In this document: positions 1 through 37,874 of the stretch, piece after piece
Position numbering within the stretch: position 1 is the first letter of the stretch
How the letters are laid out: each line of letters begins with the position of its first letter
Origin: a virus
DNA length: 37,874 nt
IMG/VR virus record: IMGVR_UViG_3300047509_000142
Location: 1-37,874 of that record
Direction: 5' to 3' (one strand)
Made by a program: the position numbers and the translations under genes
The notes under the pieces: model-generated
What the model was told of the DNA's origin: nothing
The model's database searches: none
Seen by the model: the letters and a program-made list of their open reading frames with translations, nothing else

Positions 1-136
1 ACACGCGGGCGTACACGCGGGCGTACACGCGGGCGTACACGCGGTCGGACACGCGGTCGGACACGCGGGCGTACACGCGGGCGGACACGCGGGCGTACAC
101 GCGGGCGTCCACGCGGGCGTACACGCGGGCGGACAC
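1..136. repeat. 12-bp tandem repeat array, left end
   Basis: Eleven full units of MCACGCGGKCGK plus a partial one run from base 1 without interruption. Only three positions vary: the first base (A or C), base 9 (G or T) and base 12 (T or G). On the minus strand these fall in two adjacent codons, giving Ser/Tyr/Asp and Ala/Asp between invariant Val (GTG) and Arg (CGC) codons. The array continues in register at the right end of the window. Confidence 0.97.
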
Positions 137-157
137 GCCTGATCCCAGCTGTTGCAT
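1..157 (-). CDS. Tetrapeptide-repeat protein 1, N-terminal part (continues at 37874)
   Basis: No function is known. The ATG (157-155) overlaps the TGA of the DUF6745-like gene as TGATG, so translation is probably coupled to it. The product begins MQQLGSG and then runs as V-x-[A/D]-R units, where x is Ser, Tyr or Asp; eleven full units lie before the window edge. The frame stays open at base 1 and is in phase with the frame entering at 37874. If the molecule is circular the gene ends at 37621 and encodes 136 residues: a 7-residue head, 31 repeat units and the tail VRRLQ. The head resembles the MKQLG heads of the two following ORFs, which supports coding on this strand rather than on the open plus-strand frames. 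There is no signal peptide or membrane segment. The protein would be rich in Arg and Val. The number of units may be affected by assembly. Confidence 0.7.
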   Translation of the reverse strand, partial: MQQLGSGVSARVYARVDARVYARVSARVYARVSDRVSDRVYARVYARVYARV

Positions 158-1090: not shown

Positions 1091-1414
1091 TCAGTCGATT
1101 ACGGCGCGAGCGAGCTCGCCATTCATTTCGGTGAGCGGGTAGACTTCGTTGTCTCCGGCCAGCATCGTGATTGCCGTATGGCGGCCGAGGTGAGTCAGCT
1201 CCACGTCGCGCGACAAGCGGAGCCATTGCGTACCGTCCACATCGGCGTATTCGGCAGCCTCGAAATCGTCGATTCGGTGGGGCGCGCTATCGTGGCCCGC
1301 GAGAATGATCGGCGCGGTCGCGCGCTTCAGTAGCGGCAGCACGGTTGCCGGAATGGGCGTGCGGTTGATGACTAGGTCGCCGTGGCGCGCGTCGAGTTCG
1401 TTCGGTAGGTCCAT
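1091..1414 (-). CDS. Small HGD-type protein, partner of DUF6745
   Basis: 107 residues. Features seen: ARHGDLVI at the N-terminus, IP...V, an ILAGHDSAPHRI segment in the middle, then WLRLSRDVELTHLGRHTAI and a C-terminal EVYPLTE. This order resembles small proteins that I recall beside DUF6745 genes (HGD...IP...LAxGE..GHAH...YLRV...LTHEEH..I), although here several of the His/Glu positions are changed. Function unknown. A good AGGAG lies 5 nt before the ATG. It follows a 165-bp gap after the exonuclease-annealase gene and precedes the DUF6745-like gene by 10 bp, so the two are almost certainly co-transcribed. Confidence 0.65.
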   Translation of the reverse strand: MDLPNELDARHGDLVINRTPIPATVLPLLKRATAPIILAGHDSAPHRIDDFEAAEYADVDGTQWLRLSRDVELTHLGRHTAITMLAGDNEVYPLTEMNGELARAVID

Positions 1415-1532
1415 TGGTGCTCCTGTTGGGTTGAATGCGGAACTCTCTCCGCGGTCACGCTTGCTGCCTATTGGCTTGCGTTACGCCTAGTGTCTTGGCA
1501 GCTGGACCCGACCCGTGTAGCCCGATTGGCAC

Positions 1533-1579: not shown

Positions 1580-3064
1580 TCAGGCCGCCATCTCATCCGG
1601 CGAATACAGGCCCATCGTCGCGCCCGGTGCGATGACGCGACCGAGCTGAACCCCACCCGTCTTGCGCAGCATCTCGTCGGGGCGCTTGTCCCAATTGCTG
1701 TTTGGCTTCACCAGGCCAGCCTTCTTCGCCTGGTCGATGGTGTAGCGCAGCTTGATCGGTGGGCGCCCCGCCGCCGCGCCTTGTTTGCTCTGCCCCTCCC
1801 ATTCCGCGTACGTCGCGTCACCGCCGACGAATTCGAGGTATTCGCACTCAGGCGACGCCTTGGCGCGCGCGATGATGAAGTGCGCGTGTGGGCATGGCTT
1901 CCCTTCTACAATGTGAAACAGGTCGAGACTCGTGAGCGCCCCGAGCCCCATCTCGCGGCCTCGAATGATGACGGCGAAGATGGCTTCGGCGGACGGGAAG
2001 CGCGAGTAGAGCCGCGAGTTGTACAGGTCCTGCGCGAGCTTGTACGCGAGCCCGAGCGTCGTCGGTTCCAGGGCGAGGTCCCAGCTTGGCGGCGCCAGGG
2101 CCGCATGCTTCACCTGTACGAGCTCGGCTCTCTCTGTCCTGCGCTCTGGCGCGGGCGCCGCGTCTCCCTGCGCAGCCGGCGGGGGCTCGCTTGGCGTCGT
2201 CGATGCCCCTGGCTCGGACTTGGGAGCGGGCTCGAAATCAGCGTCGTCGAATCCGATGGAATTGGTGCTAGTGGTCAACGGTTTGATCTCCCTGGTCTCG
2301 TACAGCTCAGCAAAATTGATCGGCACGTCGTAGCGTAGCGACACGAGCTTGACGGTCGTCGGCAACCACGCGAGCGCTTCTTTTAGCTTCACGTCGATAG
2401 TCAGCGTCGCCACCGGTTTCGCGCGAGGCTTCACGACTTCGAGCATTACCTGCTCTAGCGTGACGTACTCTTCCAGTAGCTTTGCCGCGCCCCTGGGGCC
2501 GACGCCTTGCACTCCGCGCACGTTGTCGCTCGAGTCGCCGCAGATGGCGAGATAATCGCGCATCTGCTCAGGCCAGACGCCGAACTTCGCGCGCACGCCG
2601 TCTCGCGTCAGTAGCTCGCCAGTCTTCGGGCTCGCCCACGACACGCCGTACTGCACGAGCTGGGTCAAATCCTTGTCGGCACTCGCGACAACAACCTCGT
2701 GCCCAGCGGCTACTGCGGCACGGCAGGCCGTAGCGAGCACGTCATCCGCCTCGAAGCCTTCCGCCTCCCACAGCAAGAGCCCGTCCTTCGCCAGCGTATC
2801 CTTGGCCAGGCGCATCTGCTCGAAAGCGGCGGAATCGCGCGGCGGGCGGTGCGCCTTGTAGCTCGGCTCCAGCTCTTTGCGGAAATTCGACGGCGAATCG
2901 CAGCACACCGCGACCAGCGAATACGGGTAGCCCTCGCGCAGGCGACGCACCTGGTTGACCGAGCGGTCGTGCGCCGCGCTCATCTCGTCCTTGACCGACG
3001 AAAACCACGCGGGCCAGAAAATGGATCCCATATCAATCAGCAGGACAGGCCGTTGCGTGATCAT
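1580..3064 (-). CDS. 5'-3' exonuclease fused to RecT-like ssDNA-annealing domain
   Basis: 494 residues. Residues 1-258 are a PolA/FEN-type 5'-3' exonuclease: the acidic residues are present at D11, D56, the E105-A-D107-D108 cluster, D130/D132 and the GDSSDN motif at 176-181, followed by the GVQGVGPRGAAKLL helix-hairpin-helix. Residues about 258-315 are a Pro/Ala/Glu-rich linker. Residues about 318-494 resemble RecT-family annealing proteins: IFAVIIRGREMGLGALTSL, IVEGKP, CEYLEF, ATYAEW, RYTIDQAKKAGLV, a W..RPDEMLRK segment and MGLYSPDEM near the end. One uninterrupted frame spans both. Known families with these roles resect double strands and anneal the resulting single strands, as lambda Exo and Beta do from two genes. 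Start ATG overlaps the upstream stop (ATGA). Exonuclease part is secure; the annealase call rests on motif memory. Confidence 0.8.
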   Translation of the reverse strand: MITQRPVLLIDMGSIFWPAWFSSVKDEMSAAHDRSVNQVRRLREGYPYSLVAVCCDSPSNFRKELEPSYKAHRPPRDSAAFEQMRLAKDTLAKDGLLLWEAEGFEADDVLATACRAAVAAGHEVVVASADKDLTQLVQYGVSWASPKTGELLTRDGVRAKFGVWPEQMRDYLAICGDSSDNVRGVQGVGPRGAAKLLEEYVTLEQVMLEVVKPRAKPVATLTIDVKLKEALAWLPTTVKLVSLRYDVPINFAELYETREIKPLTTSTNSIGFDDADFEPAPKSEPGASTTPSEPPPAAQGDAAPAPERRTERAELVQVKHAALAPPSWDLALEPTTLGLAYKLAQDLYNSRLYSRFPSAEAIFAVIIRGREMGLGALTSLDLFHIVEGKPCPHAHFIIARAKASPECEYLEFVGGDATYAEWEGQSKQGAAAGRPPIKLRYTIDQAKKAGLVKPNSNWDKRPDEMLRKTGGVQLGRVIAPGATMGLYSPDEMAA

Positions 3065-36030: not shown

Positions 36031-36209
36031 AGCATGCCGCGCTTGTTCTGGGCGCTCTGCTCATTGGGCTATTTTGCGCTTGCTCACCGGCTGACGTGGC
36101 GGCCGAAAAGAAGGCCCTCGCTGACGCGAACGCTAAGGTCAATTCGTACTGCGATGCGCGCGCGAAGGCGCTCGAAGCGCTGAGCGGCGACGCGGGGGCT
36201 AGGCCGTGA
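36027..36209 (+). CDS. Small lipoprotein (spanin candidate)
   Basis: 60 residues from GTG (GTGA overlap). Hydrophobic signal ALVLGALLIGLFCAC followed by SPADVAAEKKALADANAKVN; the second Cys (A-C) can be lipidated. The mature part is a charged helix with one further Cys. Between holin and endolysin genes, so it may be an outer-membrane spanin or Rz1-like lysis protein; this would indicate a Gram-negative host. Confidence 0.55.
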   Translation: MKHAALVLGALLIGLFCACSPADVAAEKKALADANAKVNSYCDARAKALEALSGDAGARP

Positions 36210-36838
36210 GCCGCGCGGCCGTCGTGGCTGCTGCGGCGGCCGAAATCGGACCGGACACGCACGAAAAGCGGGTCAAGTATTGGGCCGACGCGCTCGGCCG
36301 ACCGGTGACGTATGCCGAGATTTCGAAGCCGGCTTGGTGCGGCATCTTCGCGCTGTGGTGCCTGCATCAGGCCGGGCTCGACACCGATGAGCACTGGAAA
36401 ATCGGCGCGGGTTTCCTGCTCCAAAACCCTCACCCGATGCACCTCACGACGAGCCCGCAGCCTGGTGACATCGGCTACATCGCGAGCCCCTTCCAGCACC
36501 ACTTCGTTGTCGAGTCGGTCGACGCCACGCATGTGCACAGCATCGACGGGAACCAGCCGGACATCCGCCGGCAGTCCCGGGCGCTAAGTTCGCGCATCGC
36601 GTTCTACTCGATTGCCAGCCTTCTGGCCGCCGCTGGCGAGCCCGATGAGCAGCTGGGCCCGACGCCTGCCAGCATGCAGCACGCGCTGAATACGCTCATC
36701 CTGGCGCGCCCTGACGCCTCCCCGCCGCCTCTGCTCACGGTGGACGGCATCTTCGGCCCGAAGTCTACGGCGGCACTCAGGTGGGCCGAGACGCTGCAAC
36801 TGGACGACGCAACGCGCAAGGGATTGGGACTGTCATGA
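36206..36838 (+). CDS. CHAP-type endolysin
   Basis: 210 residues from GTG. CHAP-like amidase/peptidase: C45 in PAWCGIFALWC, H98-H99 in PGDIGYIASPFQHHFVVESV, and N116 in SIDGNQ make the Cys-His-Asn set. Residues about 170-210 (LLTVDGIFGPKSTAALRWAE) are a short peptidoglycan-binding domain (PG_binding_1 type). No signal peptide, so export depends on the holin. Cleaves the host wall at the end of the lytic cycle. Confidence 0.85.
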   Translation: MSRAAVVAAAAAEIGPDTHEKRVKYWADALGRPVTYAEISKPAWCGIFALWCLHQAGLDTDEHWKIGAGFLLQNPHPMHLTTSPQPGDIGYIASPFQHHFVVESVDATHVHSIDGNQPDIRRQSRALSSRIAFYSIASLLAAAGEPDEQLGPTPASMQHALNTLILARPDASPPPLLTVDGIFGPKSTAALRWAETLQLDDATRKGLGLS

Positions 36839-37074
36839 CCAGATGGGAGAAGCTCTCCGCTGTCCTGCTCCATGTCCTCGGCGAGCAGCGCAACGTAACC
36901 GCAGCCCTCAGCCACGTCACGAGCGCGCTGGGCCGGTTGTGCGACACTGTCGAACGCATCGAAGCAAACGAAGAAGCCCGCCATGCCTCACACCAGAAAG
37001 CCAACAGGGAATACGCCGCACTTGACACTCGTGTCACGAAGCTCGAGCGGGAGCGCCATGGCGCCGCGGAGTGA
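36835..37074 (+). CDS. Coiled-coil lysis-region protein
   Basis: 79 residues, ATGA overlap with the endolysin. Mostly helix: LCDTVERIEANEEARHASHQ, ALDTRVTKLERERHG. No clear membrane segment. Function unknown. Confidence 0.6.
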   Translation: MTRWEKLSAVLLHVLGEQRNVTAALSHVTSALGRLCDTVERIEANEEARHASHQKANREYAALDTRVTKLERERHGAAE

Positions 37075-37294
37075 CGCTTATAGCGCCGAGGATGCCGAGC
37101 GTCACGCTCGCGAGCTCGCCGAGTACGACGACCGCGACGAGGTCACCGCCAACATCAACGTCAACCTAGACTCCCTACACGACAGCGACCCGCCGGCAAA
37201 GCGAGTGCGGGCGGGTCTTGTCGCGGTCGGCAGCGGCATCGGGATTGCGTTGCTTACCGGGGTCGCGGCACTGCTACAGCACTGCGGGCATTGA
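37058..37294 (+). CDS. Small membrane protein, last late gene
   Basis: 78 residues. Acidic, helical N-terminus (SAEDAERHARELAEYDDRDE) and one C-terminal membrane segment (AGLVAVGSGIGIALLTGVAALL). GGGAG 5 nt upstream supports the ATG at 37058. May be a holin-related or antiholin protein. Its 3' end overlaps the third repeat ORF on the other strand by 41 bp. Confidence 0.6.
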   Translation: MAPRSDAYSAEDAERHARELAEYDDRDEVTANINVNLDSLHDSDPPAKRVRAGLVAVGSGIGIALLTGVAALLQHCGH

Positions 37295-37487
37295 GATCCC
37301 GCACGCGGGCGTCCACGCGGTCGTACACGCGGTCGGACACGCGGTCGGACACGCGGGCGTACACGCGGTCGGACACGCGGTCGTACACGCGGGCGTACAC
37401 GCGGTCGGACACGCGGTCGGACACGCGGGCGTACACGCGGTCGGACACGCGGGCGGACACGCGGGCGGACACGCCTAGCTGCTTCAT
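37254..37487 (-). CDS. Tetrapeptide-repeat protein 3
   Basis: 77 residues. AGGAGG (37493-37498) lies 5 nt before the ATG, which overlaps the stop of repeat protein 2 as ATGA. Head MKQLG, then fourteen V-x-[A/D]-R units, and a non-repeat tail (VRDLNARSAVAVPRPR) that runs antisense into the end of the late operon. Unknown function. Convergent with the late genes. Part of the DUF6745-linked array. Confidence 0.7.
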   Translation of the reverse strand: MKQLGVSARVSARVSDRVYARVSDRVSDRVYARVYDRVSDRVYARVSDRVSDRVYDRVDARVRDLNARSAVAVPRPR

Positions 37488-37493
37488 TGCAGC
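37478..37493 (-). promoter_or_regulatory. Hairpin presenting the start codon of repeat ORF 3
   Basis: In minus-strand mRNA GCUGC and GCAGC pair around the loop AAUGAA, which holds the AUG and the overlapping UGA of repeat ORF 2. The AGGAGG site touches the outer end of the stem. An identical element lies 137 bp away at 37615-37630. Confidence 0.5.
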
Positions 37494-37624
37494 CTCCTAA
37501 CGCGGGCGTCCACGCGGGCGGACACGCGGTCGTACACGCGGGCGTCCACGCGGTCGGACACGCGGGCGTACACGCGGTCGGACACGCGGGCGGACACGCG
37601 GTCGGACACGCCTAGCTGCTTCAT
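37484..37624 (-). CDS. Tetrapeptide-repeat protein 2
   Basis: 46 residues: head MKQLG, nine V-x-[A/D]-R units, tail VRRLQ. The ATG (37624) overlaps the stop of repeat protein 1 as ATGA, and AGGAGG (37630-37635) lies 5 nt before it. Its own tail codons AGG-AGG serve as ribosome site for the next ORF, whose ATG again overlaps its stop. Head and boundary are identical to those of repeat protein 3, so one probably arose from the other by the 137-bp duplication. Function unknown. Confidence 0.65.
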   Translation of the reverse strand: MKQLGVSDRVSARVSDRVYARVSDRVDARVYDRVSARVDARVRRLQ

Positions 37625-37630
37625 TGCAGC
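37615..37630 (-). promoter_or_regulatory. Hairpin presenting the start codon of repeat ORF 2
   Basis: Exact copy of the 37478-37493 element, at the junction of repeat ORFs 1 and 2. Confidence 0.5.
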
Positions 37631-37874
37631 CTCCTAACGCGGGCGTCCACGCGGGCGGACACGCGGTCGTACACGCGGGCGTCCACGCGGTCGTACACGC
37701 GGGCGTACACGCGGTCGTACACGCGGGCGGACACGCGGGCGGACACGCGGTCGGACACGCGGGCGTCCACGCGGTCGTACACGCGGGCGTACACGCGGTC
37801 GGACACGCGGTCGGACACGCGGGCGTACACGCGGGCGGACACGCGGGCGTACACGCGGGCGTCCACGCGGGCGT
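37621..37874 (-). CDS. Tetrapeptide-repeat protein 1, C-terminal part (continued from base 1)
   Basis: The frame enters at 37874 in phase with the ORF that starts at base 157 and ends with VDARVRRLQ and a TGA at 37623-37621. The last codons AGG-AGG-CTG form the ribosome site of repeat protein 2. In this part the units mix all five observed forms (SA, SD, YA, YD, DA). Inclusion as one gene with 1-157 depends on the window being circular. Confidence 0.65.
   Translation of the reverse strand, partial: ARVDARVYARVSARVYARVSDRVSDRVYARVYDRVDARVSDRVSARVSARVYDRVYARVYDRVDARVYDRVSARVDARVRRLQ

Follow-up and report, generated by a model that had tools for sequence, protein, structure and literature searches.

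In ordinary translational coupling, neighbouring genes overlap as ATGA and the ribosome site (SD) lies inside the upstream gene. Coding repeats that change in length are described for the phage gene Tweety gp54 (also Che8 gp57 and PMC gp51), whose substitution pattern is judged, in the part of the account available to us, to be consistent with selection for variation and whose repeat number differs between phages (PMC2884959). According to the accessible portion of a second paper, Tweety variants that differ in repeat number evade the Phrann gp29/gp30 defence (PMC9262239). The same part of the first account lists VR2 of the Bordetella phage gene bbp36, a variable-number coding repeat whose role is given as unknown (PMC2884959), and an extract on the type I restriction protein HsdS (EcoR124I/II) describes its 12-bp TAEL repeat as adding just over one helical turn and tuning spacing (PMC3874165).

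Here we describe a 12-bp coding array in a soil phage. The window, that is, the whole stretch of DNA analysed, comprises all 37,874 bases of an IMG/VR virus record, and terminase, portal and integrase matches together with a weak CHAP match identify a tailed phage. The array occupies both ends of the record (Table 1), and its minus strand codes for Arg-Val-x-x units, (R-V-x-x)n, in three chained ORFs. Since array phase and reading frame carry on across both record ends, a circular or permuted genome is probable, and we place the record break inside the array because bases 22-120 are an exact copy of the last 99 bases. We think it likely that the array is a portable, translation-coupled chain of tetrapeptide-repeat ORFs that multiplies by recombination between its 12-bp units.

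Table 1. Features of the array chain and its neighbourhood in the window
Feature	Coordinates	Strand	Remark
12-bp array, left record end	1..138	(-)	
Array ORF 1, 5' part	1..157	(-)	starts MQQLGSG at 157; TGATG overlap with stop of DUF6745 gene
DUF6745 gene, 307 aa	157..1080	(-)	Pfam PF20530; directly upstream of chain
5'-3' exonuclease/RecT-like fusion, one ORF	1580..3064	(-)	domain matches
Array ORF 3, 77 aa, MKQLG..PRPR	37254..37487	(-)	end overlaps convergent gene
12-bp array, right record end	37302..37874	(-)	
91-bp exact repeat, copy 1	37466..37556		contains ORF 2/ORF 3 junction
Array ORF 2, 46 aa, MKQLG..VRRLQ	37484..37624	(-)	
AGGAGG in Arg-Arg codons of ORF 2 tail	37493..37498	(-)	5 nt before ORF 3 start
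91-bp exact repeat, copy 2	37603..37693		contains ORF 1/ORF 2 junction
Array ORF 1, 3' part, ends VRRLQ	37621..37874	(-)	runs on from other record end
AGGAGG in Arg-Arg codons of ORF 1 tail	37630..37635	(-)	5 nt before ORF 2 start

ORF 1, which starts downstream of the DUF6745 gene and continues from the other record end, was absent from the first-pass annotation of this DNA; its length is 136 aa when the two ends are joined directly and 96 aa when the 99 bases are taken as overlapping sequence. That annotation let each ORF end in VRRLQ, which holds for ORFs 1 and 2 but not for ORF 3, the last of the three, whose C-terminus is VRDLNARSAVAVPRPR. The tail of ORF 3 is the antisense of a convergent gene (36983-37294), with which it overlaps by 41 bp (37254-37294).

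Both internal junctions read ..CGC GTT AGG AGG CTG CAA TGA on the minus strand, with the next ATG overlapping as ATGA. Much of what had been proposed for them is confirmed: stop and start merge at both internal boundaries, the AGG AGG arginine codons form a ribosome site that ends 5 nt before the ATG in both copies, and the 91-bp segment is repeated exactly, in direct orientation and at an offset of 137. The ribosome site, assigned to the repeat tail, does lie in tail codons, but these belong to a distinct junction element, about 29 nt long, outside the 12-bp unit. Repetition of the boundary in the window exceeds chance: of 20,000 trials with shuffled units, 37 produced an exact span of at least 91 bp and 18 an equal number of matching flank units. 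With just two junction copies and shuffle values near 1e-3, support for duplication in the window is modest.

Anti-SD binding reaches -10.2 kcal/mol at the junction versus -3.0 kcal/mol for the best array-only 20-mer, and 35 of 3000 random 20-mers from the window attain -9 kcal/mol or better. AGG accounts for 13 of the 443 Arg codons in the 14 larger ORFs of the window, and all 50 Arg codons counted in the array are CGC; since the tail nevertheless switches to AGG AGG, codon usage argues that the SD is under selection. At the MQQLG start of ORF 1, which overlaps the DUF6745 stop codon, the SD is weak (-4.3 kcal/mol). Each internal boundary thus has the SD and the overlapping stop and start by which we define a translation-coupled chain. 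The MKQLG start codon also sits in a small hairpin loop (GCTGC/GCAGC; -9.7 kcal/mol for 32 nt; minus strand, 37480-37495 and 37617-37632), which might mask this start until the upstream ribosome comes.

Chains of the same design were found in other phages. A scan for the array pattern returned 38 stretches, many of them unrelated low-complexity frames; nine records (G011-G019) were kept and the remainder discarded by eye. Scanning for the start module gave nine stretches, including the new record G023 and four that look like chance (L099, L100, L101 and L103), and a final scan gave six, with one new record (L152). As a general pattern, an RV unit with AGGAGG-N5-ATGA after it marked a chain in one of four viral stretches (G011); the other three and all 13 bacterial stretches look like chance. 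Exact junction copies number two in the window, six in G011 and eight each in G012 and G023, every phage having its own letters. In G011 (39,331 bp) they form two clusters of four and two, with ORFs of the type MMKRLDRV..VRRLP and the SD in Arg-Arg codons. The tails are SLGRVS with GGGAGGG in G012 (13,954 bp) and QGGAT with GGGAGG in G023 (38,572 bp), both with a GTGA overlap; G023 has seven chained ORFs across its record ends, a bridge visible in L152, and one cassette on the opposite strand.

All junctions of G011, G012 and G023 combine a strong SD in tail codons with an ATGA or GTGA overlap, and the longest exact spans are 91 bp in the window, 90 bp in G011, 95 bp in G012 and 121 bp in G023. 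SD energies at internal starts range from -10.2 to -12.4 kcal/mol, and those of the ORFs that open the chains (window, two in G011, G023) from just -2.6 to -5.7 kcal/mol. Fifteen of 17 junction spacings are in frame; recombination between units keeps the frame because the unit is 12 nt, or four codons. The expectation that junction number varies between phages was thus borne out (6, 8 and 8 copies), and the opposite pattern, a single junction followed by a frameshifted remainder, was seen in none of these three multi-copy phages. The claim that duplicating the boundary creates a new in-frame gene finds its counterpart in all three, but two of the seven spacings in G012 are out of frame. The term "self-copying" should be dropped, as copying would be passive recombination with no activity of the junction itself. 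As an evolutionary mechanism, the proposed role of the junction is for the most part supported by these other phages, and its translational side is a prediction.

The window's own 23-nt junction had no match among viral contigs. Ten records share the portal gene of the window, several of them fragments; among these ten, none matches its array DNA and one (G001) has a DUF6745 gene. G011 and G012 have no non-array ORF in common with the window at E 1e-8, and G023 has 11, for example TerL at 41% identity. The differing letters suggest either that old junctions diverged or that the design arose more than once. DNA searches against named phages gave no near match for 1-24000 and no distant match for 36200-37874, and tblastn with the array protein found nothing, which the low-complexity filter of BLAST may explain. 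A literature search found no description of a repeat-ORF chain with such junctions.

Variation among the 53 whole units of the window is confined to nucleotides 4, 5 and 8 of 12 and is always amino-acid changing. Counted per column, synonymous variant codons amount to 0 of 3 in the window, 0 of 15 in G011, 1 of 11 in G023 (seven of its eight ORFs) and 2 of 11 in G012 (five ORFs). L152, a second assembly of the G023 phage with identical ORF order, aligns to it over 6,918 bp without gaps; all five mismatches fall within the array (597 bp), and the remaining 6,321 bp are identical. The mismatches touch four codons, all amino-acid changing, and two are adjacent and may be one event; these differences could stem from assembly error, to which repeats are prone. 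A test for a diversity-generating retroelement found a reverse transcriptase (PF00078) in none of nine records including the window, some of which are fragments. RecT matches occur in four of nine records, three above the cut-off, the window and G023 included. The simplest reading is unit-to-unit recombination combined with selection for differing x residues. The exonuclease/RecT-like fusion of the window is a possible helper of repeat recombination; G023 has a similar ORF, at 42% identity.

The arrays also behave as insertable units. The entry overlaps the stop of an upstream ORF in the window, in both G011 clusters and in two G015 cassettes. Exits lead through an NTGA overlap into non-array ORFs of 54-329 codons in G011 cluster 2, G012, the G023 chain and G015 cassettes 1 and 3, and G015 cassette 2 leads into a non-array ORF whose ATG lies 2 nt beyond the stop. 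The exits of G017 and of the G023 plus-strand cassette reach only frames of 16-18 codons, and for G011 cluster 1 and the window there is either no start nearby or just a frame of 45 codons. Because the three cassettes of G015, with near-identical heads and similar tails, are dispersed behind different ORFs, and because chain and cassette of G023 share a 121-bp exact match although they lie about 13 kb apart on opposite strands, the sequences point to copying of cassettes between sites within one genome. A second repetitive frame lies near the DUF6745 gene of G015 (L079:7489-7900).

The gene upstream of the chain matches DUF6745 at 27.3 bits (cut-off 27; E 2.7e-6), and its 307-aa product shares 41-42% identity with counterparts in G017 and G015. 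Tblastn with this protein retrieved 11 named phage records, each below 60% identity; a separate search of viral contigs gave no relatives. Array ORF 3 has no Pfam match at E 0.001, DUF6745 included. DUF6745 ORFs with an internal array occur in G001 (21 copies of a 12-bp unit), prophiGD102-1 (QSM05137.1), cta39025 (UOF77368.1), G018 and one of 30 actinomycete loci. In the window, G017, G013 and G014, DUF6745 has no internal array and an array ORF adjoins it; in G015 and G023, array ORFs lie elsewhere in the record. Microcystis phage LMM01 carries the gene without an array, and G011 and G012 gave no DUF6745 match. DUF6745 was matched in 31 of 296 actinomycete genomes, and one of the 30 loci scanned has a clear period-4 array. 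Since the arrays lie inside some DUF6745 ORFs and adjoin or stand apart from others, one kind of array occurs both as an inner segment of DUF6745 and as free ORFs, so that ORFs like those of the window would sometimes be internal to such genes.

The fold of DUF6745 matched no solved structure (best Foldseek E 0.54; best Z 3.9 over 41 residues in a second comparison), and its best matches among viral models are DUF6745 or unnamed proteins; within the internal array, the pLDDT of the DUF6745 model is about 40. A literature search found no paper naming the family. Several side observations concern these loci. The actinomycete genome L148 has a DUF6745 ORF with a long internal (AVxG/AVxD)n array, and G001 contains an additional tandem array of period 6/30 (L019:4689-4849). 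A small gene accompanies DUF6745, at about 1094-1480 (-) in the window, where it matches the G015 and G017 copies by tblastn; other copies lie at L081:6685-6990, L077:6397-6756, L078:11611-11997, L079:8080-8439 and the end of L018:14369-15304. The copies in G001, G013 and G017 match phrog_27831, and by eye the copies share a GHxHA/GHTHT-like motif.

Several elements can be read directly from the records: the anatomy of the cassettes, the identical repetition of their junctions, their recurrence in other phages and the variation of x residues with almost no synonymous change. A cassette begins with an ATG or GTG overlapping the preceding stop, continues with in-frame 12-bp units (Arg-Val-x-x) and closes with a tail in whose codons a strong ribosome site is written; the stop after this tail overlaps the next start. 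Ribosomes finishing one ORF are predicted to re-initiate at the next. Recombination between units, 12 being a multiple of three, would keep the frame while duplicating or deleting whole ORFs and moving cassettes, perhaps assisted by the phage RecT-like protein. The least certain step concerns the products, which may be long helices with variable surface residues whose diversity is kept by conflict with host or rival-phage factors; our model for this diversity is the Tweety gp54 array, tuned by repeat number.

The array might instead act at the DNA level, as iterons or as a packaging or partition site, with the ORFs as by-products. A stop-free 12-bp unit stays open in every frame that is not closed, the other frames of the window array are indeed open, and the arrays of the window, G011 and G023 lie partly near or across record ends. 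A DNA element would, however, have little use for identical junctions that combine SD, ATGA or GTGA overlap and codon switching, or for variation that avoids third codon positions; in addition, the arrays of the window, G011, G015 and G017 are read from the strand of the neighbour genes that they overlap, and like repeats are found inside DUF6745 genes. We therefore regard this alternative as very unlikely.

Ordinary tandem duplication in a low-complexity gene, with junctions copied by slippage, devoid of a role or selection of their own, and most internal ORFs useless, seems to us unlikely, if less so than a DNA element. It accommodates the keeping of frame, which is automatic with a 12-bp unit, the two broken frames of G012 and the modest support for duplication in the window. 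It does not predict that tail codons become AGG AGG or GGA GGT only at the SD, that the junctions are preserved letter for letter as the x codons diverge, or that cassettes are flanked by other genes which they overlap at either end. Finally, short reads may have turned a single repeat gene into an apparent chain during assembly, an explanation in keeping with the break of the window record within the array, the recurrence of its last 99 bases and the few bases by which the G023 ends differ. Chains in four different records, together with the gapless repetition of the G023 ORF order in L152 across those ends, make such an artefact scarcely credible.

Beyond the likely chain of coupled repeat ORFs, it is possible, and we offer this with some doubt, that phages possess a class of portable coding cassettes of the form [A/G]TGA-(4-residue repeats)n-SD-[A/G]TGA, which could be inserted and multiplied between coupled genes with translation unbroken. 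The outcome would be combinatorial helical repeat proteins under diversifying selection, in effect a gene-making array for conflict with hosts or rival phages. If so, complete new genes would arise from one recombination step, because the unit keeps the frame and the boundary brings stop, start and ribosome site. The unexplained family DUF6745 and a tunable repeat protein of the Tweety gp54 type would be tied to visible fast diversification, and the arrays would be a direct test case for gene birth via repeat recombination in phage populations.

As to the products, ORF 3, modelled with 12 other array ORFs, is a single helix (residues 4-71; pLDDT 82.8, pTM 0.38). Our best guess, by analogy with Tweety gp54, is a variable helical binder, and the chain may supply the phage with several such binders at once. 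ORF 3 had no phrog_3416 match, its only one being phrog_5189 (9.4e-4), whereas Tweety gp54 matches phrog_3416 at 1.2e-142; we discounted, as low-complexity effects, the weak matches of repeat stretches to Cas2, a type I specificity subunit, SseA and MSCRAMM. By Pfam, Tweety gp54 is not DUF6745, and 8 of its 19 variant codons are synonymous, a count that includes units outside the core.

The window array thus resembles Tweety gp54, as far as the published extract describes it, in being phage-encoded with 12-bp, four-residue units of two fixed and two variable residues. In the same extract, gp54 differs in being a single ORF whose N- and C-terminal parts are unique and whose units carry Ala-Ala, and neither an ORF chain nor an SD junction appears there. 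The internal DUF6745 arrays (G001, QSM05137.1, UOF77368.1) follow the same four-residue design of a polar residue, V/L and two others, but each is single and inside its gene, whereas the window array lies outside the gene as chained ORFs. The HsdS TAEL repeat is also 12 bp long, and the window array ORF too is modelled as a long helix; going by the portion of that source at hand, however, HsdS carries two or three identical units in one protein, with neither a chain nor variable residues. Bbp36 VR2, likened by its partial description only, has a 24-bp unit in one ORF. Ordinary ATGA coupling uses the same translation signals as the window, where they lie within a repeat array and would therefore multiply by repeat recombination.
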